A stretch of DNA of 21,103 nt from positions 1 through 21,103 of IMG/VR virus record IMGVR_UViG_3300005747_000293. One strand, 5' to 3'. Made by a program: the position numbers and the translations under genes. Positions 3,052 through 21,061 of this stretch are shown here, piece after piece. This stretch comes from a virus. Position 1 is the first letter of the stretch, and every line of letters starts with the position of its first letter. The notes beneath the pieces were generated by a model. The model was not told the origin of the DNA and searched no databases. It saw nothing but the letters and a program-made list of their open reading frames with translations.

Positions 3052-5388
3052 ATGGCTGATTTAAAATACAAAGTAGGTATAGAAACACAACAAGCTCAAC
3101 GAGCAATGAGCGGATTACAAAACCAAATTGTAGGTATTGGTGCGGCGTTAGCAACAGCATTTACAATAACAGAACTTACACAGGTTGCCGCAAGATTTGA
3201 AAATTTACGTAGTAGTTTAGGAATTGTTTTCAAAGACGTTGAAGAAGGTGCAAAAGCATTTAGTCAAATAAAAGCATTTGCTACTGAAAGTGTGTTTAGT
3301 GTTGAAGCACTTACTGAAACTGTAATTAAATTAAAATCAGCAGGATTAGATCCTACTGTAGCACAGCTAAAATTATTTGCAGATGTATCAAGCGTTGCTG
3401 TAGATAGTTTAGGTGCTCTACAAGCTATAACAGACTTGTATGCACGTACTACAGCAGGTGGACTTGGTTTAGAAGATCTAAACAGATTACAAGACAGAGG
3501 TATTCCTGTATTCAAACTACTTGCAGATAATGCAGGATTAGCAAGAGACGAAATATCTAAAGTTGGACAAAGTGCTGAAGGTGCACAAGCAATTCTTGCT
3601 GTGTTACAAGATGCACTGTCAGAACAATTTAGTGGTGCAAGTGCCGCAAAAGCTGACACACTAAGTCAAGCAATTAGTAATTTGCAAGATGGTCTTGACA
3701 ATATGTTTGACACAATTGGTCAGAGTGGATTTAATGAAGCTCTTACTGAAGCTATCAATAATACAACAGCATTTATTCAACGCAATGAAGAACTTATAAA
3801 AACTATAGGTGAAGGCCTAGGCAACGCAATACGTTTTGCCGCAGACAATGCAAAATATTTAGGTGCTTTACTAGCAGGAATATTTGCTGCCGCAACAGCA
3901 GGTAGAATTATAGCTATAACGCAAAGTGTCATAGCACTTAGTAAAGCAATGAAGAGCGCCGCAATAGCTGGTACTATTTTGCAAGGTGTTACAGGTGTTG
4001 GACTTGTTAAAGTAGGTGTTGGCTTAGCCGCTGCCGCAGGTGCTATTGCAACTATTGAAGCAATGAGCGATGATGCTAGTGACAATATTGATGGCATAAA
4101 AGATAGTATTGACAAACTTAATGATGGACCTATTGCTCCTACAGCAGAAGCACCAGCAAACTTAGATGCGGCTGTGGCAACCATTGAAAAACTTAAAACT
4201 GGACAAACAGCATTAACAGCTAGTGCGACACAATACTTTAACAAATTTGAAGACGGCGTAGATGCTTTTAGCAGACGCATAAAGCAACAAACAGAATTAT
4301 TAAAATTAACAGATGACCAAGCTGAAGTACAAAGAGGCATTAACCAATTTGAACAACAGTACCTAAACACTATTGCTCCTTTGCAACAAAAAATTATTGA
4401 CCTAAGAGCAAAAGACACTGATGCAAGTAGAGCACAGGCAGAACAAATACAAAACCAAATTGGACTTATTACTGAATTACACGCAGAAAGTATTTCAGGT
4501 ATAAAAGCACAACTAGAAAATCAAGTTGCAATTAGCAACCAAATGGAACGTCAAGTTGAATTGCAAGATGCACTAAACGCTAGAATTGAAAACCGTATGA
4601 GTTTTCAAGAACGTATGCACGACTTAGTGCGTGACGCAAATCACGAGCTAGAAGATCTATCACTAGATCCATTTGAAAAAGAATTACGTGATATAAACAG
4701 AATGCTTGATAGAGAATTAATCCAAGCAATCCGTAATATTAAAAGCCAATGGGAAGATGGCATTATTAGTGCAGACGAATATATTGCAGAAACAAAGAAA
4801 CTAGAAGCTGCCGCACTAAAAGCACAAGATACACTTTACGGAGTTGCAACACAAGCAAGAGAAACACAACGTAGTTTTGCATATGGTTGGCGCAGAGCAT
4901 TTGAATCATACGAAGACGATGCAACTAATGCCGCTAAAAATGCAGAACGTATCTTTGCTAAAACTACCAAAGGTATGGAAGATTCAATTGTTAATTTTGC
5001 CAAAACAGGTAAGTTTGAATTCAAGAGCTTTGTAGCAAGTATATTAGAAGATTTGCTTAGAGCACAGATACAACAGTCAATTGCACAAATATTTAAAACA
5101 CCAATGGGTGGCGGCACAGCAGGAGGCGGCCTAGGCAACATATTTGGTGGATTCTTTGCAAACGGTGGATTCTTACCAAGTGGTAAGTTTGGTGTTGTAG
5201 GAGAAAGCGGTCCTGAGCTTATAAGTGGACCTGCAAACATAACACCATTAAATGGTATGGGTGGCAATGTAACATATAACATTAACGCAGTAGATGCATT
5301 GAGCTTTAGACAGATGGTAGCTAGAGATCCAGGCTTTATACACGCTGTAGCACAAAAAGGTGGCAGTGCAGTGCCAAGTGGGAGATAA
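3052..5388 (+). CDS. Tape measure protein
   Basis: The longest gene of the tail module (778 residues). The N-terminal 230 residues follow the tape-measure N-domain (ARFENLRSSLGIVF, then SVEALTETVIKLKSAGL, LQDRGIPVFKLLAD). Two hydrophobic stretches lie near residues 270-295 and 315-340 and probably interact with the host inner membrane during DNA entry. A long charged coiled-coil region covers about 380-610. The C-terminus has the lambda-H-type end: MEDSIVNFAKTGKFEFKSF near 645, Gly-rich spacers, then GVVGESGPELI near 715. Such proteins set tail length; at about 1.5 angstrom per residue this predicts a tail near 115-120 nm. The previous stop is 1 base away and AAGGAA serves as ribosome site. 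Confidence 0.9.
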   Translation: MADLKYKVGIETQQAQRAMSGLQNQIVGIGAALATAFTITELTQVAARFENLRSSLGIVFKDVEEGAKAFSQIKAFATESVFSVEALTETVIKLKSAGLDPTVAQLKLFADVSSVAVDSLGALQAITDLYARTTAGGLGLEDLNRLQDRGIPVFKLLADNAGLARDEISKVGQSAEGAQAILAVLQDALSEQFSGASAAKADTLSQAISNLQDGLDNMFDTIGQSGFNEALTEAINNTTAFIQRNEELIKTIGEGLGNAIRFAADNAKYLGALLAGIFAAATAGRIIAITQSVIALSKAMKSAAIAGTILQGVTGVGLVKVGVGLAAAAGAIATIEAMSDDASDNIDGIKDSIDKLNDGPIAPTAEAPANLDAAVATIEKLKTGQTALTASATQYFNKFEDGVDAFSRRIKQQTELLKLTDDQAEVQRGINQFEQQYLNTIAPLQQKIIDLRAKDTDASRAQAEQIQNQIGLITELHAESISGIKAQLENQVAISNQMERQVELQDALNARIENRMSFQERMHDLVRDANHELEDLSLDPFEKELRDINRMLDRELIQAIRNIKSQWEDGIISADEYIAETKKLEAAALKAQDTLYGVATQARETQRSFAYGWRRAFESYEDDATNAAKNAERIFAKTTKGMEDSIVNFAKTGKFEFKSFVASILEDLLRAQIQQSIAQIFKTPMGGGTAGGGLGNIFGGFFANGGFLPSGKFGVVGESGPELISGPANITPLNGMGGNVTYNINAVDALSFRQMVARDPGFIHAVAQKGGSAVPSGR

Positions 5389-5772: not shown

Positions 5773-6369
5773 ATGTCAATTAACTTAACAAGTTATGATG
5801 GTCTAAGAGCCGCTACATTTGTAAGATTAGATATACAACAGTATAGACAAACTCCTAGCGGAAGTTACAGTACACAGATATTACGATTCTCTGATCATAA
5901 TGTTGCTTTTGTTATTGACGGAGAAACTTACACACCATTAGGTAACTTGTTAAGCATTAGTGATACAACAAGCGAATTAAGAACAACTAATCAAGACATA
6001 ACAATTACAATAAGCGGCATACCAGACACAAATTTAGGTGAAGTGCTATACAGTAAATTAAAAGGTTCAAATGTACAAGTATATCGTGCATATTTTACAC
6101 AAGCAGGCAGTCAAATTAGTACAACACAAGGTAGATGGAAAGGCACAATCAACAACTACAATATTGATGAAGAATATGATGTGTTGGCAACAGACGCAAC
6201 TAATTCAATACAAATAAATTGCATCAGTAGTCATAACTTGTTAGAACGTAAAATTGCAGGATTGAAAACAAATCCAAACAGTCTTAAAACATATGCTGCC
6301 ACAGACACAAGTTTTGATAGAGTACCTACGCTAATTGGTTCACAGTTTGATTTTGGAGTACAGAGATGA
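5773..6369 (+). CDS. Distal tail / baseplate protein (lambda L position, DUF1833/DUF2163-like)
   Basis: A 198-residue protein with the pattern ATFVRLDIQQYR, FVIDGETYTPLGNLLSIS and ITITISGIPDTNLGEVLYS. This resembles the beta-sandwich of distal tail proteins found in siphoviruses and gene transfer agents. Lambda gpL carries an iron-sulphur cluster, but only one Cys is visible here (NCISSHNLLERK), so a cluster is not expected. GGAGGT precedes the ATG, and the stop TGA overlaps the following ATG (ATGA), pointing to coupled translation with the hub gene. Confidence 0.55.
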   Translation: MSINLTSYDGLRAATFVRLDIQQYRQTPSGSYSTQILRFSDHNVAFVIDGETYTPLGNLLSISDTTSELRTTNQDITITISGIPDTNLGEVLYSKLKGSNVQVYRAYFTQAGSQISTTQGRWKGTINNYNIDEEYDVLATDATNSIQINCISSHNLLERKIAGLKTNPNSLKTYAATDTSFDRVPTLIGSQFDFGVQR

Positions 6370-7127
6370 GTTTTATAGATACACTAGGCGGAATAGTAAA
6401 AGGTGTAGGTGGATTTCTTAGAAGTAATTCACTAGGAAGTAACCTTGCTAAATCAGCACTTTATGGCTTTGCATTAAACAGAGTGTTAAAAAGTATACAA
6501 AAGAAACAAGATGCAAACCAACCCAAGGATCAAGGTACACAAGTAAGTATCAATCCAGATCCAAAGAATTCAGTACCAGTTGTTTATGGAGATGCCTTTA
6601 CAAGCGGTATTATTACAGACGCACATATGGCAGGCAACAACACAACACTGTGGACTTGTTTGACTCTAAGTGAAAACACAGGCAATTTGATTGACGGTAC
6701 ACCAAGTGCAATTACATTCAAAGAAGTATACTACAACGGTTTTAGATTAGATTTTAAGGCAGATGGTGTTACAGTAGACAAGGCATACGATGACAGCGGT
6801 AATTCAACAGATAAATTTAGTGGACTAATTCAAGTGTACCCTTTTGTAGGAGGTAGCACAGGTGCTGTAAGTTTCTATACTGAAAGCACAGGCAACACAA
6901 GCAATGCTTATGACGTTATGCCAAGCTGGTCATCTACAGATGGTATGGACAATCTTGTGTTTGCAATAGTAAAAATTAATTATAATGCTAAAAACAGAGT
7001 AACACAGGTAGGCGACTTTAAATTTAGATTATCAAACACAATGAGTAAACCTGGAGATGTACTATTTGATTATATGACCAACACTCGTTATGGTGCAGGA
7101 ATACCACAAGCGGAGATTAATGTATAA
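6366..7127 (+). CDS. Tail tip hub (J-like), first part
   Basis: 253 residues with the N-terminal features of J-like central hub proteins: an N-terminal amphipathic segment ([19 protein letters not shown]), [54 protein letters not shown] and the diagnostic [17 protein letters not shown]. In the usual single-chain hub, sequence continues straight on from this point into a short linker and the next hub domain. Here a TAA ends the chain and an ATG overlaps it (TAATG), with the next codons continuing the hub-like sequence. This chain alone should be an incomplete hub that must assemble with the following two products. Confidence 0.7.
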
Positions 7128-8845
7128 TGCAAAGTTTAACAGACCTTAACACTAGAGCCGCACAAACTGTAACATTTACTGAAAACAGAGGTACAAATGT
7201 TATCTTTGATAGAGCAGCTGGTAAAACTTATAGTTTTACAGAAACTACGTTAAGTTTTAATTTACTAGTTGGTGCTAACATTACAGAAATTATTAACCCT
7301 ACACTTGCTAATGTACGGTACAAAATTAACATAGGTACAACACAAGTTTCTTTAAATTTTGGTACATTACCAAGTGGTGTAACAGTAAGTCAAACTGGTA
7401 CAATTTATACAGTATTTGGTATTGACAGTATTAGTGATTGGGAAGCTGTCAAACAACCTACAGTAACAATTGACGCGGCATTTGCTGGCACGTTTAGTTA
7501 CGATGCCTCAATAGTGTATAACACAGATACTACAGCAGACAATGAATTTCAATGGAACGTAGGAATTTATGCTCCAGATGCTCTATTAGAGAGCCAATTT
7601 GCTATTACTGGTAATGGTACATCTATAAGAAATTCAGGCGCTACATTAGTAGCTTTAACTTCTATAGAGGCTACTCCAACACCGCCAATTGAAATTTCGC
7701 CAGCATCGCTGTCAAGTGCATTCTCAATTACAGCAACTGGTATACTAGTTACATTTGGTAGTGCAAACATATCAGCATCTAGTACATTAAGTGCATCAGG
7801 TGATAGGTTAAGAATTTCTGGTAGTTCAATGTCAGTTAACACTAGTATTAGTGCTATAGCATCACAAGTACATCAAGGAACTAGTAATTTAACTTCTTCA
7901 GCTTCTATAACTTGTTCTTTAGAACAATCAGGAATGGTGTTTACACAAACTGGTGTTAGTAACGGCGGAACTTTCTATTATAAAGGCGACGGTACATCAA
8001 ACACATTTGACGTAACTTGGACAGATTTAAATACTGGAACATCTGAAACAAGAAGTGTTTCAACTATTTCAACCAGCTATGAGCCAGCTTCGCCTGCAAC
8101 ATTGTCAGCTTCTAACATTGAAATTAGTATAGAAAATACTCCTCGTATGTTAGGATTTAGACACAATATAGATTTAGACACAGGTACGGCAGATAATTTA
8201 CAATCAATAAAAACATTTGGACATTATATTGAAGAATTTGAAATTAGTGGTACTACTAATTTTACAGTTCCAACAAATATTCCTACAAGTGTTACAAGTT
8301 TGCGTAGAGCTTTTACTAATTGTAGTGCGTTTAATGATTCTGCCTTACAAAATTGGAGCACAGGCAATGTTACTAGAATGGATGAAATGTTTTTAAGTAC
8401 ATCTTTTAACCAAGATATTGACAGTTGGAATACAAGCAATGTTACTAGAATGGATGGTATGTTTAAAAACAACGAATCGTTCAATCAATACATAGGAAGT
8501 TGGGATACAAGCAGTGTAACAACTATGAAAGAAATGTTTAGATGTAGTACAGCAGCTGGCGGTCTTTTTAACCAAGATATTGACAGTTGGGATACAAGCA
8601 GTGTAACAGATATGTATGCAATGTTCTTAAATCAAAATGATTTTAATCAGGATATAAGCAGTTGGGATACAAGTTTAGTTACAGATATGGAACTTATGTT
8701 TGGAACAGTAGGAACTGGTAGTTTTGACCAAAATATTAGTAGTTGGTGTGTTGAATTAATTTCAACAAAACCAGCAAATTTTGACACCAATCAACCTGTA
8801 ACTTGGACAACAGCTGAAAAACCAAATTGGGGTGTAACTTGTTAG
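7127..8845 (+). CDS. Tail tip hub, middle part with large adhesive insert (Ig-like and BspA-type repeats)
   Basis: 572 residues. The first 20 ([20 protein letters not shown]) read like continuation of the J-like hub left off by the previous gene. Then come beta-sandwich-like sequence (about 20-190), four 20-residue repeats (about 192-269), another beta-rich part (about 270-390) and six BspA-type repeats (about 392-540) of the form MF-FNQDI-W-TS-VT-M. The protein ends with a Cys and tandem stops TAG TAA. BspA-type repeats are known in bacterial surface proteins that bind host matrix, so a receptor-binding role is likely. Start overlaps the previous stop; CGGAG lies upstream. It is placed in the loop that in relatives joins two hub strands. 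Confidence 0.6.
7700..7933 (+). repeat. Four copies of a 20-residue beta repeat in the hub insert
   Basis: Units of 20, 20, 19 and 19 residues with alternating hydrophobic positions and the core L-x-S-A-F, for example [20 protein letters not shown]. The core matches the repeats of the 921-residue fibre at 13429 (for example GSADLDSAFTISADADVLKD), so the two proteins share one repeat family. Confidence 0.65.
8300..8749 (+). repeat. Six BspA-type (DUF285) repeats of about 25 residues
   Basis: The units run from [19 protein letters not shown] to [10 protein letters not shown]. The conserved frame is MF, then F-N-Q-D-I, then W-(D/N)-T-S-x-V-T-x-M. Copies 2 and 4 share the hexa-codon stretch for FNQDIDSW, which also shows as near-identical DNA. 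The family forms leucine-rich-repeat-like solenoids on cell surfaces. Confidence 0.85.
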
Positions 8846-8858
8846 TAAGGATAGATAG

Positions 8859-10691
8859 ATGGCTACAATAAACAATTATGAAATAAACGGTGTAATAGAT
8901 ACTAGTAATAATGTTTTTGACAATATAGAATTGCTTGCAATTAGTAGCGGTTGTTTTGTCACTTGGGACGCAAGTGAAGGCAAGTGGAGTGTTGTAATTA
9001 ACCAAGCTGGTTCAAGCATTTTTACATTTAACGATTCAAATATACTAGGACCTATCACAGTAGGCACAAGCGGTATAAACGATCTATACAATTCAGTAGA
9101 AGTACAATACCCGCACAAAGATTTGAGAGACACAGTTGATTATCTAACTGTAAGTGTAGATTCAGCTGATAGATTTAACAATGAACTAGACAACGCACTA
9201 CAAATTAATTTGTCAACAGTTAATGAGCCTATACAAGCACAATACATTGCCACACAAGAATTAAAACAAAACAGAATTGACAAGGTAATTGAATTCAAAA
9301 CAGACTTTCAAGGCAATGGCCTAAAAGCAGGAGATATTGTTGCTGTAACAAATTCTGCATTGTCTTTTAACGCAAAAGAATTTAGAATTATACAAATTAA
9401 TGAACAAGACACAGATGAAGGTAGTATAGTACTAAGCATTACAGCGGCAGAATATTCAGCTGATGTGTACAACATTACAGGTTTAACTTACGATTTAAGA
9501 ACTAAAAACACAGGCATACCTAGTAAAATTGTAAACGAAGAAATAGAAGCATTAGACGATGAAGATGCAGGTGCAAGTATTGGACGTTTGTTGTTGGCAA
9601 ACGCGGCCGCAAAAGTATTCAATGGTTTGTTAGGCAGTTTGTTTGGTGATCCGTCAGCAGATGGCGCACTTACAGAACAACAGCAAAAAGAAGCTGAAGA
9701 TCAGACAGCATTCTTAAACGGTATAAAGAAACCACCACTTACACACTCCGCGAGTACATCAGCAATCTGTGAAGGTGGCTCAGTAACAATTAACTTTACA
9801 GATGATTGTGAAACTTGTTATTTTGATGTACCAGACTATGATTATGATTACACAATAACAGGCATAGATGCCGCAGACATTAGCATACCTCTAACAGGAA
9901 CAGTATCAGTTACAGGTGGCTCAGGCAGCATAACATTTGACACAACCATAGACGGAGATGCATACGAAACACTTACATTTAGTTGTGGTGAAAACACAAG
10001 TGATATTGTTATACAATCAGCAAAAGCATACAGCTATGATACTATTAGTGCTTCACCTGCAAGTATAACAGAAGGCGATTCAACAACTGTAACAGTTAAC
10101 GCAACTGGTATTACTGATGGTACAACTAAACCTTATACAATTGGTGGAAGTGCAAGTGGCAAAGTTACAAGCCCAGCACTCACAGGCACAGTTACATTTA
10201 ATAGTGGATCAGCTAGTCTTACTATAGATACAAACAATGATAGTGTATACACAGGCGGTCAAAGTTTAGATATTGAAATAGAACCAGGATATGAAAACCC
10301 TTGTGCTCTAGCAGATGCTAGAACTGTAAGTGTTAGTGTTGCAGATGATGAAAGTGCTCCTGTACCAGACAACACTTGCGAAACGGTATCTGTTCCAGTT
10401 GCGTTCTGTGGTAGTTACGATGCTACTACTAACTATCTAACAGGTTTAACTGTAGTACGCACAATGACATTTGCACTAGCAAGCACTGGTGGAACCGCAG
10501 TACCTTCAGCAGTAAGTGTCACAGGTGGGGGAACAAGTGGCGCGGCAATTGTGGTTGATTCAACAGTTAATGTTGACACAACTAGTGGACAAAGTGGCAT
10601 TGATGTAAACGTTATTACAAGTTTTGATAGTCCAACACAATACCCTAACACAAGAATAACAGGCACAACAGCTACTATTAGAGGCTATTAA
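8859..10691 (+). CDS. Tail tip hub, third part with C-terminal Ig/Calx-beta-like region
   Basis: 610 residues. The N-terminal 210 residues are clear J-like hub sequence: YEINGVIDTSNNVFDNIELL, SSGCFVTWDASEGKWSVVIN, FNDSNILGPITV, LYNSVEVQYPHKDLRDTVDY, ELKQNRIDKVIEFKTDF, FRIIQINEQDTDEGSIVLS. A charged/helical linker follows (about 225-290). The C-terminal half is Thr/Ser/Gly-rich with Cys and Asp pairs (ICEGGSVTINFTDDCETC, SPASITEGDSTTVTV), like Ig-like or Calx-beta adhesin domains in marine phage tail proteins. It has its own ribosome site (AAGGA 8 bases from ATG). Together with the two genes before, it should form the host-recognition tip. Confidence 0.75.
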   Translation: MATINNYEINGVIDTSNNVFDNIELLAISSGCFVTWDASEGKWSVVINQAGSSIFTFNDSNILGPITVGTSGINDLYNSVEVQYPHKDLRDTVDYLTVSVDSADRFNNELDNALQINLSTVNEPIQAQYIATQELKQNRIDKVIEFKTDFQGNGLKAGDIVAVTNSALSFNAKEFRIIQINEQDTDEGSIVLSITAAEYSADVYNITGLTYDLRTKNTGIPSKIVNEEIEALDDEDAGASIGRLLLANAAAKVFNGLLGSLFGDPSADGALTEQQQKEAEDQTAFLNGIKKPPLTHSASTSAICEGGSVTINFTDDCETCYFDVPDYDYDYTITGIDAADISIPLTGTVSVTGGSGSITFDTTIDGDAYETLTFSCGENTSDIVIQSAKAYSYDTISASPASITEGDSTTVTVNATGITDGTTKPYTIGGSASGKVTSPALTGTVTFNSGSASLTIDTNNDSVYTGGQSLDIEIEPGYENPCALADARTVSVSVADDESAPVPDNTCETVSVPVAFCGSYDATTNYLTGLTVVRTMTFALASTGGTAVPSAVSVTGGGTSGAAIVVDSTVNVDTTSGQSGIDVNVITSFDSPTQYPNTRITGTTATIRGY

Positions 10692-10817: not shown

Positions 10818-11210
10818 ATGTCAGCAGCAAGCGATTATTTAGAATTAGAAGTCCTAGACCACGTACTAGGCAACGGTGCATACACACCAGCAACAAACCT
10901 ATACTTAGGTTTATGGACAGCAGATGACGGCCTAGAAGCAGGCACACTAACATCTGAAGTTTCAGGTGGTTCATATGCACGTGAAGTTATTACATTTGAT
11001 GCAGCAGCCTCTGGTTCATCCAGCAACACAGGAACTGTAACTTTTACTACAGCAACAGGTAACTGGGGTACAATTACTCACGTTGCGGTAATGGACGCAC
11101 TTACAACAGGAAACGTATTGTTCCACGGTGCAGTTACAACTTCTAAGACTATTGAAACAGGTGATACATTCCAAGTTTCAGCAGGCAACTTGACTATCAG
11201 CCTAGCTTAA
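10818..11210 (+). CDS. Small virion protein (Gp80-like / fibre-associated), likely high copy
   Basis: 130 residues with the features of a small structural protein common in marine phages: an N-terminal helix (YLELEVLDHVLGNGAYTPAT), a LYLGLWTADDG strand, SYAREVITFDAA, a TGNWGTITHVAVMDALTTG segment and a GDTFQVSAGNLTISLA end. Exact location in the virion is not established by the sequence; fibre-associated or decoration roles are possible. It has an excellent ribosome site (AAGGAG), its own late-type box and a strong terminator, so it is a single-gene unit probably made in large amounts. Translation ends at four consecutive in-frame stops (TAA TAA TAG TGA). Confidence 0.65.
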   Translation: MSAASDYLELEVLDHVLGNGAYTPATNLYLGLWTADDGLEAGTLTSEVSGGSYAREVITFDAAASGSSSNTGTVTFTTATGNWGTITHVAVMDALTTGNVLFHGAVTTSKTIETGDTFQVSAGNLTISLA

Positions 11211-13428: not shown

Positions 13429-16194
13429 TTGGCTGATCAATTTTACATTGAAGACGGTTATGTAGTACAAGCATACTTTGAAGTACAAGTAGACAGTGGT
13501 ACAATAACTCTGACAGGTGCGTTTTCACCTAGTATTGATGTAGACATTGCAGACGACACAGGCTACTATATTCCTGACTATATTGAAACAGGGTATATTG
13601 GTGTAGCAGCCACAGAAGCAGAAGCCGCACTTTCAAGTGCATTTAGTACTTCTATAGATGCTGGTGCTGTTAGAGATGCAAGTGCAGACTTTGGCGCATT
13701 GTTTACACCTAGCTTTAGTATTGATACATTTACTAGAATTAGTGCAACACTAGACAGCCAATTTAGTCTAGATGCAACTGTAAGTAAAATTGCAGGCAAT
13801 GCCGCAACACTTGACAATATTATTAATCTGTCCTTACAAGCAGATAGAACGAGACTGTTTGACTCCGCTCTTTCCGCCTCGTTCGCCCAATCTACCACAG
13901 TTAACAAACTTGTTGACGCACAATCTACACAATCCTTACAATTTACACAAACAGCAAACGCAGAAGTTTTACAACTCAGCGGCGCAAATCTTGCATCTGC
14001 ATTTACACAAACAGCAAACGCAATTGAATTTAGAAGCAAATGGTTAGACTCTGAACGTCCTGTAGGATGGGATAGTAGTGTAAGTACAGGTTCTTTTAAT
14101 AGTACATATAAACAATACGGCACACACAGTTATTTTGTAACAGGTAATTTAAAATCAGAAACTGTCACAGATTATTTTGATATTGCCACAGACGAAGATT
14201 TTGCTGTAGAGTTTTGGTATTATTATCCATTTAGTAGTAGCTACAGTTCAAGTAGATTGCTTCTTTACACAAATACAGCATTTGAAATAGACGCTGTTTG
14301 GCAAAGTGGGTTTCAACAATTTAATTTAAAATTAGATTGGTTTAATGGAGCCGCTACAATTGATACGCCAAGATTAAATTATGATACTTGGCATCACATT
14401 AGTGTTGTTAGATCCAACAATGTTATTACTTTAAAAGCTAATAATTCTAGTGCTGGCACTATTACATCATCAGATACAAGTTTAGTAAATCGTTTTATTA
14501 TAAATTCAAATGATAATATTAGCTTTCAAAGTGCAGGTCACAATTATTACATTGATGAATTTGCTCTAAGAATAGGCGATGACACTGTAAACGGTTACAG
14601 TCAAGCACCAACCAACGCATTCTTTGACAGTCAAAAAATGCTTACGCACCTTGACAATAACTTTGATGATGATTATTTAAGTGGTGTAACGCTTGCAGGT
14701 GCCGCTACACTATCTAGCGCATTTACAATGTCAGCAAGTTCAAATGTAACTCTAGACGCTACAGTATTACAACAAGGTGCGGCTACACTAACAGCAGATA
14801 TTAATGTAACAACTGACACAAGTTCAACACAAAATGCCATCTTTACACAAAACGCTGAAATAGGCGTATTGCAGGGCGGCGCAAGTAGTCTTAACAGTGC
14901 ATTTACTCAAAACGTAGACATTAGCAAGCTCGTTGATACTAGTAGCTCTCTTAACAGTGCATCCACTTTAACAGCCAATGTAGGTGCTATAAGACAAGGT
15001 GCAAGTGACATTGATTCAGCAATGGACTTTGTTGCTACTGTAAGAGCAAACAAAGTAGGCGACACTGACTTTGATATTGCTTTTGTACAAACAGTTACAG
15101 CTGAGCGTATTAGAGGCTATGGTGCTGACCTACAAGCTGAGTTTACAGGCCAGTTTATTATTGGTGAAATTGAACAAGGTTCTGCAGATTTAGACAGTGC
15201 ATTTACAATATCTGCAGATGCTGATGTACTCAAAGACGCAGACAGCACAATGTCTAGTGCGTTTGCACAGTCAGCAACAGTGGTCAAAACAACAGACGTA
15301 GACAGCACACAAAACATTGCATTTACAATATTAGCAGATCCTGCTGGAACAACAATTGGTGGTATTGCTGACCTAGACAGTGCGTTTGCACAGTCAGCAA
15401 CAGCAACACGAGTACAACAGGGTGCAAGCACCTTAGCTGGTAGTGTAACGCTTGCTGTAGACGCTATAAAAGCTGTAGACGCAGATGCTACACTCAACAG
15501 CACCGCTACAATTAGTGCTACAGCTACACGTATACAACAAGGTAGTGCAGACTTTGATGCGTTTGTTACACAACTAAGTGCTGTTGCTAAAATAGGCAAC
15601 TTCCTAGTTGATATGGACACAGCATTTGTAATGTCAACAGACGGCAGAGTAATTGCAGAGAATGATATTGTACTAGACAGTGCAAGCGCACTTACAGCAG
15701 ACGTAGGTGTAATCAAAACTACAGATGTTACTATGTCAAGTGCAACATCACTTGTAGTTGAAGCTGTTATAGGTATTGCAGGTGAAGCTGATCTCAACAC
15801 AAGTGCATCACTAAGTGTAGATGCAGTTGTAGTAGTAAGTGGTGAAGCTGTAATTGATTCAGCAATGAGCTTTGTTACAACAGTCAAAGCAAACCTAGTA
15901 GGTGAAATTGACCTTGACACAGCGTTCCAAATATCAGCAACACCAAGTGTTATAAAATCAACACCTGTAGCACTAGACAGTGTTGTAAGTGTCCAAACCA
16001 CCCCGTTTAAACTGGTTTCTGCGGCAAGTGTGTTAAATACAATCATAACGTTAACAGCATCAGGTAGAATTATTACTTTTGATGCAGACTTAACTTATGT
16101 TGTGCCAAGTGAAACTAGAACAACAATAATATTAGGCGAAGACAGAGAGTTTGCCATAGACAAAGAAACAAGAGAATATAAATTTAGGAGTTAA
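13429..16194 (+). CDS. Long repeat fibre with inserted LamG-like domain
   Basis: A 921-residue protein starting at TTG with AAGGAG 8 bases upstream, so the rare start is supported. After a short head (ADQFYIEDGYVV) come seven 20-residue repeats (64-203), a LamG-like lectin domain (about 204-423; ATDEDFAVEFWYYYPF, WHHISVVRSNN, YYIDEFALRIGDD), then about 23 more 20-residue repeats (424-884) and a tail ending REFAIDKETREYKFRS. Repeats have alternating hydrophobic residues and no Cys or Pro bias, compatible with a slender beta-fibre or solenoid. The low-complexity, Ala/Ser/Thr/Asp-rich composition fits a fibre shaft presenting the lectin domain. No known fibre family is recognised for the repeat. 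Confidence 0.7.
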   Translation: MADQFYIEDGYVVQAYFEVQVDSGTITLTGAFSPSIDVDIADDTGYYIPDYIETGYIGVAATEAEAALSSAFSTSIDAGAVRDASADFGALFTPSFSIDTFTRISATLDSQFSLDATVSKIAGNAATLDNIINLSLQADRTRLFDSALSASFAQSTTVNKLVDAQSTQSLQFTQTANAEVLQLSGANLASAFTQTANAIEFRSKWLDSERPVGWDSSVSTGSFNSTYKQYGTHSYFVTGNLKSETVTDYFDIATDEDFAVEFWYYYPFSSSYSSSRLLLYTNTAFEIDAVWQSGFQQFNLKLDWFNGAATIDTPRLNYDTWHHISVVRSNNVITLKANNSSAGTITSSDTSLVNRFIINSNDNISFQSAGHNYYIDEFALRIGDDTVNGYSQAPTNAFFDSQKMLTHLDNNFDDDYLSGVTLAGAATLSSAFTMSASSNVTLDATVLQQGAATLTADINVTTDTSSTQNAIFTQNAEIGVLQGGASSLNSAFTQNVDISKLVDTSSSLNSASTLTANVGAIRQGASDIDSAMDFVATVRANKVGDTDFDIAFVQTVTAERIRGYGADLQAEFTGQFIIGEIEQGSADLDSAFTISADADVLKDADSTMSSAFAQSATVVKTTDVDSTQNIAFTILADPAGTTIGGIADLDSAFAQSATATRVQQGASTLAGSVTLAVDAIKAVDADATLNSTATISATATRIQQGSADFDAFVTQLSAVAKIGNFLVDMDTAFVMSTDGRVIAENDIVLDSASALTADVGVIKTTDVTMSSATSLVVEAVIGIAGEADLNTSASLSVDAVVVVSGEAVIDSAMSFVTTVKANLVGEIDLDTAFQISATPSVIKSTPVALDSVVSVQTTPFKLVSAASVLNTIITLTASGRIITFDADLTYVVPSETRTTIILGEDREFAIDKETREYKFRS
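13618..14037 (+). repeat. 20-residue (60-base) repeat array A, 7 copies
   Basis: Seven uninterrupted units of exactly 20 residues, for example AEAALSSAFSTSIDAGAVRD and ISATLDSQFSLDATVSKIAG. Hydrophobics sit at positions 5, 9, 11, 13, 15 and 18. The array ends where the LamG-like domain begins. An earlier related unit lies at residues 24-43. Confidence 0.8.
14698..16080 (+). repeat. 20-residue (60-base) repeat array B, about 23 copies
   Basis: 461 residues resolve into about 23 units of 20, with one 21-residue slip near TTIGGIADLDSAF and an irregular first pair (26+14). Examples are GSADLDSAFTISADADVLKD, GEIDLDTAFQISATPSVIKS and GASTLAGSVTLAVDAIKAVD. The family is the same as in array A and in the hub insert at 7700. 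Confidence 0.8.
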
Positions 16195-16197
16195 ACA

Positions 16198-16536
16198 ATG
16201 AGTTTAAGAAGATCAGGTTTTGAACAAACAAACACAGGTTTAGCTGTCACCAAAGACACTGAAGCACAGCTTATCTACACACTAGACTGGACCAACTGGT
16301 TAGAAACTGGAGACACAGTGAGCACAGTAGCGTGGACAGTAGCGGCAAGACGCAACGACCCCACTCCTTTGGTAAACGAAGATTCAGGAGTAGATGGTAC
16401 CAACAAAAAAACCTACATAGAAATATCAGGTGGACAAGCAGACAAAGTTTATATTGTTACAGCTAAAGTTACCACAGCAAACGGATTAATTGATAGACGC
16501 AACTTTAGAGTTGAGTGTGTTGATAGAGCAGCATAA
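16198..16536 (+). CDS. Fibre-tail adaptor-like virion protein
   Basis: 112 residues with an Ig-like layout seen in small phage structural proteins that follow fibre genes: an entry strand AQLIYTLDWTNWLETGDTVS, then TVAWTVAARRND, a GISGGQADKVY-type turn (EISGGQADKVYIVTAKVTT) and a last strand NFRVECVDRAA. The D-W-x-x-W-L-x-x-G-D motif is characteristic of the group as I recall it. The ribosome site AGGAG lies 8 bases before the ATG. The stop shares its A with the next ATG (TAATG). The adaptor role is from family annotation, not shown here. Confidence 0.5.
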   Translation: MSLRRSGFEQTNTGLAVTKDTEAQLIYTLDWTNWLETGDTVSTVAWTVAARRNDPTPLVNEDSGVDGTNKKTYIEISGGQADKVYIVTAKVTTANGLIDRRNFRVECVDRAA

Positions 16537-20087: not shown

Positions 20088-20310
20088 AGACTTTGATCCT
20101 CTAGCTCAACTTGAAGAACAGTCACTATTGTTGAGCAAACTTATTAACGCACACAACCGCCACGACTCAATCATAAGCGACCTAGCTGAACAACACAAGA
20201 GCACTATAAACTTAATTAGAACAGACAGAGACAAGATCGTACATCTTGAAAACAAAGTAAAAGTAATGAGTAAAATGTTAGGAGAGCTGTATGCAGATAG
20301 AAGCGATTAA
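20077..20310 (+). CDS. Coiled-coil protein of unknown function
   Basis: 77 residues overlapping the previous gene by 11 bases. Two ATG codons in a row (20077, 20080) are possible starts. The sequence is a continuous helix with Leu/Ile heptads (LAQLEEQSLLLSKLINAHNR, KIVHLENKVKVMSKMLGELY) and no Pro or Gly until the end, so a dimeric coiled coil is likely. It ends 20 bases inside the methyltransferase gene, whose ribosome site (AGGAG) it contains. No family recognised. Confidence 0.6.
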   Translation: MMSKDFDPLAQLEEQSLLLSKLINAHNRHDSIISDLAEQHKSTINLIRTDRDKIVHLENKVKVMSKMLGELYADRSD

Positions 20311-21061
20311 AAGCAAAGACAGCCACACCTATTGGATTGAGTCAGGCGACACTATGTATGAAGGTAGACTAATACACGGACATTATCAATCAACCAACTG
20401 GGACTTTGCACAAACGCTGATTGGTAGTTGGAGACGTTGCATAGACATTGGATCAAACAATGCTGTAAACGCAATACACTATGCCAAACGTTTTGCAACA
20501 GTAGAATGTTTTGAACCAACCCCTCTAGCACAACAGTTGTGGACAAGAACAATCAAAGACAATGGTGTAAAAAATTGTACACTACACGCACAAGCACTAG
20601 GCGAAACACCTAGAACAACTGACATTATAATACATCCAAAGAATGGAGGACACAATCACATACAACACTTTGACAAGAATCCAAGAGCAAGAGGTACAAC
20701 CAAAGCAACTGTAACAGTTGATGTACGCACACTTGACTCATACCAATTCACACAAGTTGACTTTGTTAAAATAGATGTTGAAGGGTATGAACTGTTTGTA
20801 CTTCAAGGAGGATTACAAACTATACTACACAATAGACCTGTGCTACAATTAGAAATAGTTGACAAGCAATGTCGCAAGTTTGACTATGCTCGCAAAGACA
20901 TTGCGGACTTGTTTGACACACTAAATTACAAATGCTGTTCAAAGAAGAACGGTTGGATTGACTTACGACAACACAAGGAAGGACGAGGCGAAATGGACTT
21001 GTTCTTTGTGCCACAAGAAAACATCAAGACTTTACCACCACATTTGGCACTTTTTAGTTAA
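20291..21061 (+). CDS. FkbM-family SAM-dependent methyltransferase
   Basis: 256 residues. Residues 50-75 carry the SAM-binding motif (CIDIGSNNAVNAIHYAKRF, then VECFEPTPLA, where FEP is typical of FkbM). Around 155-168 is VDFVKIDVEGYELFVLQGG, the family signature KIDVEG-x-E, followed by PVLQLEIV. FkbM enzymes methylate hydroxyl groups, often on sugars. In phages they are auxiliary genes with untested targets (host glycans, virion or nucleotide modification). AGGAG lies 8 bases before the ATG. The gene ends an operon of four overlapping genes from the 19240 promoter. Confidence 0.85.
   Translation: MQIEAIKSKDSHTYWIESGDTMYEGRLIHGHYQSTNWDFAQTLIGSWRRCIDIGSNNAVNAIHYAKRFATVECFEPTPLAQQLWTRTIKDNGVKNCTLHAQALGETPRTTDIIIHPKNGGHNHIQHFDKNPRARGTTKATVTVDVRTLDSYQFTQVDFVKIDVEGYELFVLQGGLQTILHNRPVLQLEIVDKQCRKFDYARKDIADLFDTLNYKCCSKKNGWIDLRQHKEGRGEMDLFFVPQENIKTLPPHLALFS

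Follow-up and report, generated by a model that had tools for sequence, protein, structure and literature searches.

A J/pb3-type tail-tip hub encoded in three consecutive open reading frames in a group of uncultured phages

A siphophage tail-tip hub has to make a closed tube that can open on command; it has been described as one conserved chain or as two chains that are split further upstream. In lambda (gpL and gpJ) and RcGTA (gp13 and gp15), the hub domains are divided between chains, with two proteins sharing the HDII-insertion domain (PMC10721106). In T5, the baseplate hub protein pb3 is one chain that contains all four hub domains, and the receptor binder pb5 is carried on a separate central fibre (PMC10038345).

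Here we describe a locus on a 21,103-base record of an uncultured virus from IMG/VR (the window, which is probably a fragment) that encodes a J/pb3-type tail-tip hub. The hub fold is the same as that of lambda gpJ with gpL and of RcGTA gp15 (megatron) with gp13 (hub). In lambda and RcGTA, however, the break is between gpL/gp13 and gpJ/gp15. The present locus has two additional breaks, both within the J-type chain, and a middle chain bearing an exchangeable arm, which lambda and RcGTA lack. T5 pb3 was the closest hub by sequence profile and was also close by fold, but it is one chain compared to three here. The breaks lie inside the single chain of lambda, RcGTA and T5, and a middle chain that combines hub elements with an exchangeable arm is new; the layout was undescribed in the literature searched, with most subscription papers and all of bioRxiv outside the reach of that search.

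The hub locus and its relatives

The preliminary description of the window had read the hub gene as split into three ORFs, and both junctions were exactly as it had placed them: the TAA of ORF1 (7125–7127) overlaps the ATG of ORF2 (7127), and the TAG of ORF2 is followed by the ATG of ORF3 (8859). The features of the locus were:

3052–5388, tape measure gene, upstream of the hub genes
5773–6369, + strand, gpL / RcGTA gp13-like tail gene, upstream of ORF1 (PHROG 2048 tail protein, E 3.7e-25)
6366–7127, + strand, ORF1, N-terminal hub chain (PHROG 5616 positions 15–206; relatives; ORF1 alignment)
7112–7115, + strand, GGAG Shine-Dalgarno (SD) motif for ORF2, within the end of ORF1 and 11 nt before the start (sequence)
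7125–7129, + strand, TAATG, ORF1 stop overlapping the ORF2 start, break 1 (sequence)
7127–8845, + strand, ORF2, middle chain with a hub segment, a conserved N domain and an exchangeable arm (ORF list)
7127–7189, + strand, ORF2 residues 1–21, helix of the hub and first strand of its hairpin (score matrix of single-chain linkers; helix comparison in models)
7127–7576, + strand, ORF2 conserved N domain, residues 1–150 (matches in 108 fetched, overlapping loci; pLDDT mostly 88–98)
7577–8149, + strand, middle region of ORF2, containing short repeats (weak similarity to repeats in the fibre ORF 13429–16194, BLASTP E 1.8e-5 with composition correction)
8294–8842, + strand, BspA-type DUF285 repeats, exchangeable cassette (Pfam PF03382, E 3.8e-47)
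8843–8858, + strand, break 2, TAG stop of ORF2 followed by TAAGGATAGATAG, which contains the AAGGA ribosome site of ORF3 (sequence)
8859–10691, + strand, ORF3, C-terminal hub chain (PHROG 5616 positions 297–503; Phage-tail_3, E 1.5e-6; ORF3 alignment)

ORF1 and ORF3 matched successive stretches of one family, PHROG 5616 (873 positions), with E values of 0.0007 and 3e-12 respectively, and the Pfam Phage-tail_3 match of ORF3 exceeded the family cutoff. The hub portion of ORF3 spans approximately 8859–9530. The gene at 5773–6369 overlaps the ORF1 start by 4 nt and is separated from the tape measure gene by a short tail gene. It is the candidate for a gpL/gp13-like gene that would supply HDI from upstream: in addition to the PHROG 2048 match, it showed a match of 24.7 bits to the Pfam hub N-terminal domain Phage_phiJL001_Gp84_N, slightly below the cutoff of 26.

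Further genes were noted elsewhere in the window. Upstream of the tape measure gene is a lookalike of a lambda G/GT-type tail chaperone pair (2216–2766); the first ORF of the pair ends with ATG AAA AAA TAA, a -1 shift on the A run enters the second ORF, and the genome seems to use a frameshift there. The fibre ORF at 13429–16194 encodes 921 residues, is rich in repeats and has a TTG start. Two genes, at 10818–11210 and 16198–16536, had Pfam matches to the podophage GP4 fibre families gp80 and gp77, despite the lambda-type tail genes of the window. An FkbM-type methyltransferase (20291–21061, Pfam E 1e-13) was encoded close to the end of the record.

Relatives were collected from scans of IMG/VR with ORF1, the ORF1 alignment and the ORF3 alignment, together with annotated phages, and both hub halves were required. 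Removal of copies with an identical ORF1 end left 106 distinct hub loci including the window, of which 84 had three chains (the window and 83 others), five had two and 17 had a single chain. At an ORF1 identity of 80%, the 89 split loci grouped into 70 clusters; owing to the kinship among loci, the counts of layouts and motifs are not independent. The preliminary description had allowed that the stops might be read errors, or that the three ORFs might be unrelated to one hub, and the relatives bore out neither. All 84 three-chain loci were interrupted at the same two points, with a constant ORF1 end, a constant ORF3 resumption and one ORF2 occupying the gap, and the AlphaFold model of a single-chain relative was J/pb3/RcGTA-like. 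The 79 complete ORF2 proteins of three-chain loci ranged from 415 to 1736 residues, with a median of 769. ORF2 was interrupted in contigs L010, L060, L100 and L144; the interruption in L010 is probably an assembly or read error, since its near twin L011 is intact. No relative was found in a provirus scan of genome contigs, and so no link to a host was obtained.

The single-chain loci included three annotated isolates, Methylophilaceae phage P19250A and Pelagibacter phages HTVC111P and Kolga. In single-chain hubs, the ORF1 end, the N-terminal helix and strand of ORF2 and the ORF3 start were found in one frame. The halves of most single-chain relatives are joined by ~27 residues, which bears out the short loop that had been proposed. 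The junction of one of them (L021) reads ...YGAGIHENYID-QTSLTALNTYSDTGVAYDDQGTGAQTLAD-RYQINGLLDT. In the five two-chain loci (L075, L095, L140, L148 and L166), break 1 was present and the insert was not; the second chain consisted of an ORF2-type N-terminus continuous with the ORF3 hub. Kolga EXVC016S (L029) was considered as a single-chain hub with an insert in the hairpin, but the hairpin proved short and the additional insert is located outside it, and it was counted as single-chain. Its tail tip J (the protein from locus position 3947) has ~290 extra residues before a DYLTNKVYG motif, at another place in the protein, so the hub can accommodate insertions at different sites.

Start signals at the two junctions

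A start codon (ATG or GTG) was found at or beside the ORF1 stop in all 89 split loci. ATGA was the most common overlap (58 loci), followed by TAATG (11 loci); most of the others had an 8-nt overlap with ATG or GTG, and three had a small gap. In one locus (L076) the script scored the start at offset -8, the true start being the ATGA at -1. As these start codons lie in different frame registers, the conserved feature is the start codon and not the frame. GGAG, GAGG or AGGA was present at -18 to -3 in 78 of 89 split loci; the corresponding position carried it in one of 15 single-chain loci, and the background rate in control ORF1 stretches was ~4%. When the loci were clustered at 80% ORF1 identity, the ratio was 62/70 against 1/13 single-chain loci (Fisher p ~1.5e-8, a value that overstates independence as the loci share kinship). 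The spacing of 11 nt between GGAG and the start in the window is long for an SD. A scan limited to -1 slippery heptamers found none at the ORF1/ORF2 junction of the 89 split loci, so that the slippery heptamer in the overlap by which a lambda G/GT-type frameshift is recognised was missing throughout.

Gene overlaps of 4 or 1 nt are a hallmark of termination-reinitiation and are enriched among the subunits of complexes (PMC10666635). The ATGA and TAATG overlaps found here are of this kind, TAATG being that of the window, and very short gaps are also compatible with it. Gene pairs coupled by termination-reinitiation frequently specify the subunits of heteromeric complexes (PMC10666635); unlike the usual pairs, the putatively coupled genes described here are pieces of one protein in relatives.

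At break 2, the ATG of ORF3 directly follows TAAGGATAGATAG and lies 13 nt past the ORF2 stop. An SD motif was found ahead of the ORF3 start in 77 of 79 loci, and the start was mostly 9–13 nt past the ORF2 stop.

Hub elements and the exchangeable arm of ORF2

The AlphaFold model of the single-chain hub L021 (pLDDT 82, pTM 0.80) was used to locate the breaks. A fold search with this model returned the hubs of RcGTA, lambda, T5, T1, Chi and JBD30 with Z scores of ~19–22. The sequence profile found T5-type hubs only (T5 pb3, E 6.4e-21; its DT57C counterpart, 3.2e-21). The fold of the L021 model and the family match of ORF1 and ORF3 both place the window among the J/pb3/megatron-type hubs, but the J-type part is not a single chain in the window or in 83 other loci. 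With three ORFs in place of one J-type chain, the hub is a variant and not a typical member of this type. At the site of the breaks, the L021 model has a helix (257–267) and two strands (271–275 and 279–283), which places break 1 before the helix and break 2 at the turn of the hairpin, and ORF3 resumes at the second hairpin strand. The hub domain that bears the hairpin is probably HDII, as judged from the order of the chains.

A score matrix was built from single-chain linkers such as SLTALNTYSDTGVAYDDQ. Its best-scoring position was the ORF2 N-terminus in 69 of 79 ORF2 proteins, including that of the window. The helix and strand found at the ORF2 N-terminus were missing from ORF1 and ORF3. 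Residues 4–11 were helical in the model of the window ORF2 and the strand-equivalent residues were unpaired; in this model, which was of low overall confidence (pTM 0.43), the unpaired strand would be compatible with a need for a partner strand from another chain. The homology of ORF2 residues 1–21 to the hub helix and strand suggests that a strand of one chain may complete the fold of another, in the style of donor-strand complementation. In comparisons of near relatives, the hub segments of ORF1, ORF2-N and ORF3 all had dN/dS values below 0.3, which points to purifying selection acting on them and on the N domain of ORF2.

Residues ~1–150 of ORF2 fold confidently alone (block pLDDT mostly 88–98), and at the thresholds used this N domain had no match in an annotated phage collection of 50,697 records. 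The fold search with ORF2 gave only weak and mixed Ig-like matches. The Ig-like character given to ORF2 in the preliminary description is therefore plausible but unproven; given the weakness of the matches and the pTM of the model, no family was assigned. The BspA-type repeats that had been recognised from the letters alone were confirmed as DUF285/BspA by Pfam.

The C parts of 64 ORF2 proteins fell into several classes, with Gly_rich_2 in 26, FG-GAP_2 in 13, LamG in six and DUF285 in four. The window and its relative L001 were 95.7% identical in ORF1 and 84% identical in the N domain of ORF2, and their C parts could not be aligned. The BspA cassette of the window was ~53% identical to the cassettes of L056 and L024, whose ORF1s share 44% and 35% identity respectively with that of the window. 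As the class of the arm varies over a conserved N domain and hub, the arm is exchanged as a module; this supports the proposal that phages swap such cassettes, ORF2 C-termini switching class while the hub halves stay alike. From its domain types and position, the arm is a candidate receptor binder. In the single-chain loci L014 (5117–7969) and L069 (6521–8965), BspA-type repeats were also found, on an ORF of their own that follows the hub, so the cassette is used on different carriers.

Readings of the split and its evolution

As an explanation of the whole, the hub is likely to be an assembly of three chains, in which an adhesin forms the middle chain and is anchored by hub elements of its own. 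Ribosomes would translate ORF1 and then start ORF2 at the overlapping stop and start (TAATG here, mostly ATGA in relatives), presumably by reinitiation and with use of the SD motif within the ORF1 end; ORF3 would start from its own ribosome site, 13 nt past the ORF2 stop. The three chains would co-fold in trans into one hub protomer and, by analogy with lambda and T5, there may be three protomers per tip. Most of the hub would come from ORF1 and ORF3. The first ~20 residues of ORF2 would provide the helix and one hairpin strand, fixing ORF2 to the hub, and the remainder would extend outward from the turn of the hairpin, forming an adhesin-like arm that can be exchanged and that in the window ends in BspA-type repeats.

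ORF2 might instead be an independent tail fibre gene that lies between the hub chains and outside the hub fold, ORF1 and ORF3 forming the hub alone. The self-standing fold of the N domain would suit such a gene, as would the similar BspA repeats in separate downstream ORFs of single-chain loci. We consider this unlikely: the ORF2 N-terminus matches the helix and strand of the hub linker, in the two-chain loci that segment runs on into the ORF3 hub, and ORF1 and ORF3 are without these elements. A programmed ribosomal frameshift at the ORF1/ORF2 junction, as in the lambda tail chaperones, would produce an ORF1-ORF2 fusion and thus a hub that is two chains or partly fused. In most loci the register of ORF2 is -1, and the genome of the window seems to use a frameshift at 2216–2766, but the junctions of the split loci are devoid of -1 slippery heptamers, have an SD motif that is specific to them and vary in register while the start codon stays constant. 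In some loci, moreover, ORF1 and ORF2 are separated by a small gap, and overall a frameshift is quite improbable.

Two further readings concern the integrity of the gene. That ORF1 and ORF3 flank an insert within what relatives have as one hub could point to the removal of ORF2 by RNA or protein splicing, with ORF1 and ORF3 joined. Excision of ORF2 would also lose its hub helix and strand, and an intron or intein was ruled out as no Rfam family, introns included, was matched in the window and no intein domain was found in the three ORFs; splicing is accordingly very hard to credit. The chance that the breaks are assembly errors or mark a decayed hub gene is negligible. ORF2 is interrupted in four three-chain contigs, and at least one of these cases (L010) is probably an error. 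The breaks themselves, however, are identical in 84 loci (~70 clusters) and have their own start sites, and the 83 other three-chain loci and the dN/dS values below 0.3 for both the hub segments and ORF2-N rule out a sequencing error or pseudogene.

On a tree of the hub halves with no defined root, the three-, two- and single-chain states required four changes. One supported clade contained all two-chain loci and 11 single-chain loci, and the P19250A-like single-chain loci were located elsewhere, near three-chain loci. Loss of the arm followed by re-fusion and stepwise fission would both fit such a tree. The alternative raised in the preliminary description, that the insert carried in the breaks, was weakened by the five loci that have break 1 and its ribosome site and not the insert; break 1 and the insert are thus separable today.

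In mitochondrial cox2 of Campsomeris, inserted ORFs split the gene, and complementary polypeptides apparently form a heterodimer (PMC5374615). The split hub can be likened to this insertional gene fission. In Campsomeris the inserted ORFs, one of them for a nuclease, do not belong to the split protein, whereas the inserted chain here carries part of the hub and looks like a functional payload. On balance, it is somewhat more likely than not that the hub is a true three-chain protomer, into which the arm is plugged by a hub helix and strand that it donates in trans, so that the hub offers a reusable socket for Gly-rich, FG-GAP, LamG or BspA arms. On this reading, lineages have changed their number of chains among three, two and one, and re-fusion of two-chain hubs perhaps gave rise to some of the single-chain ones.

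If the three-chain reading is true, a large group of uncultured phages has a plug-in site for receptor binders at the tail tip, where receptor-binding parts could be swapped as whole genes with the reading frames of the hub untouched. It would provide a site at which a J-type hub is naturally split and explain hub gene calls that appear broken in metagenomes, and it makes the gain of new binders by tail tips testable.
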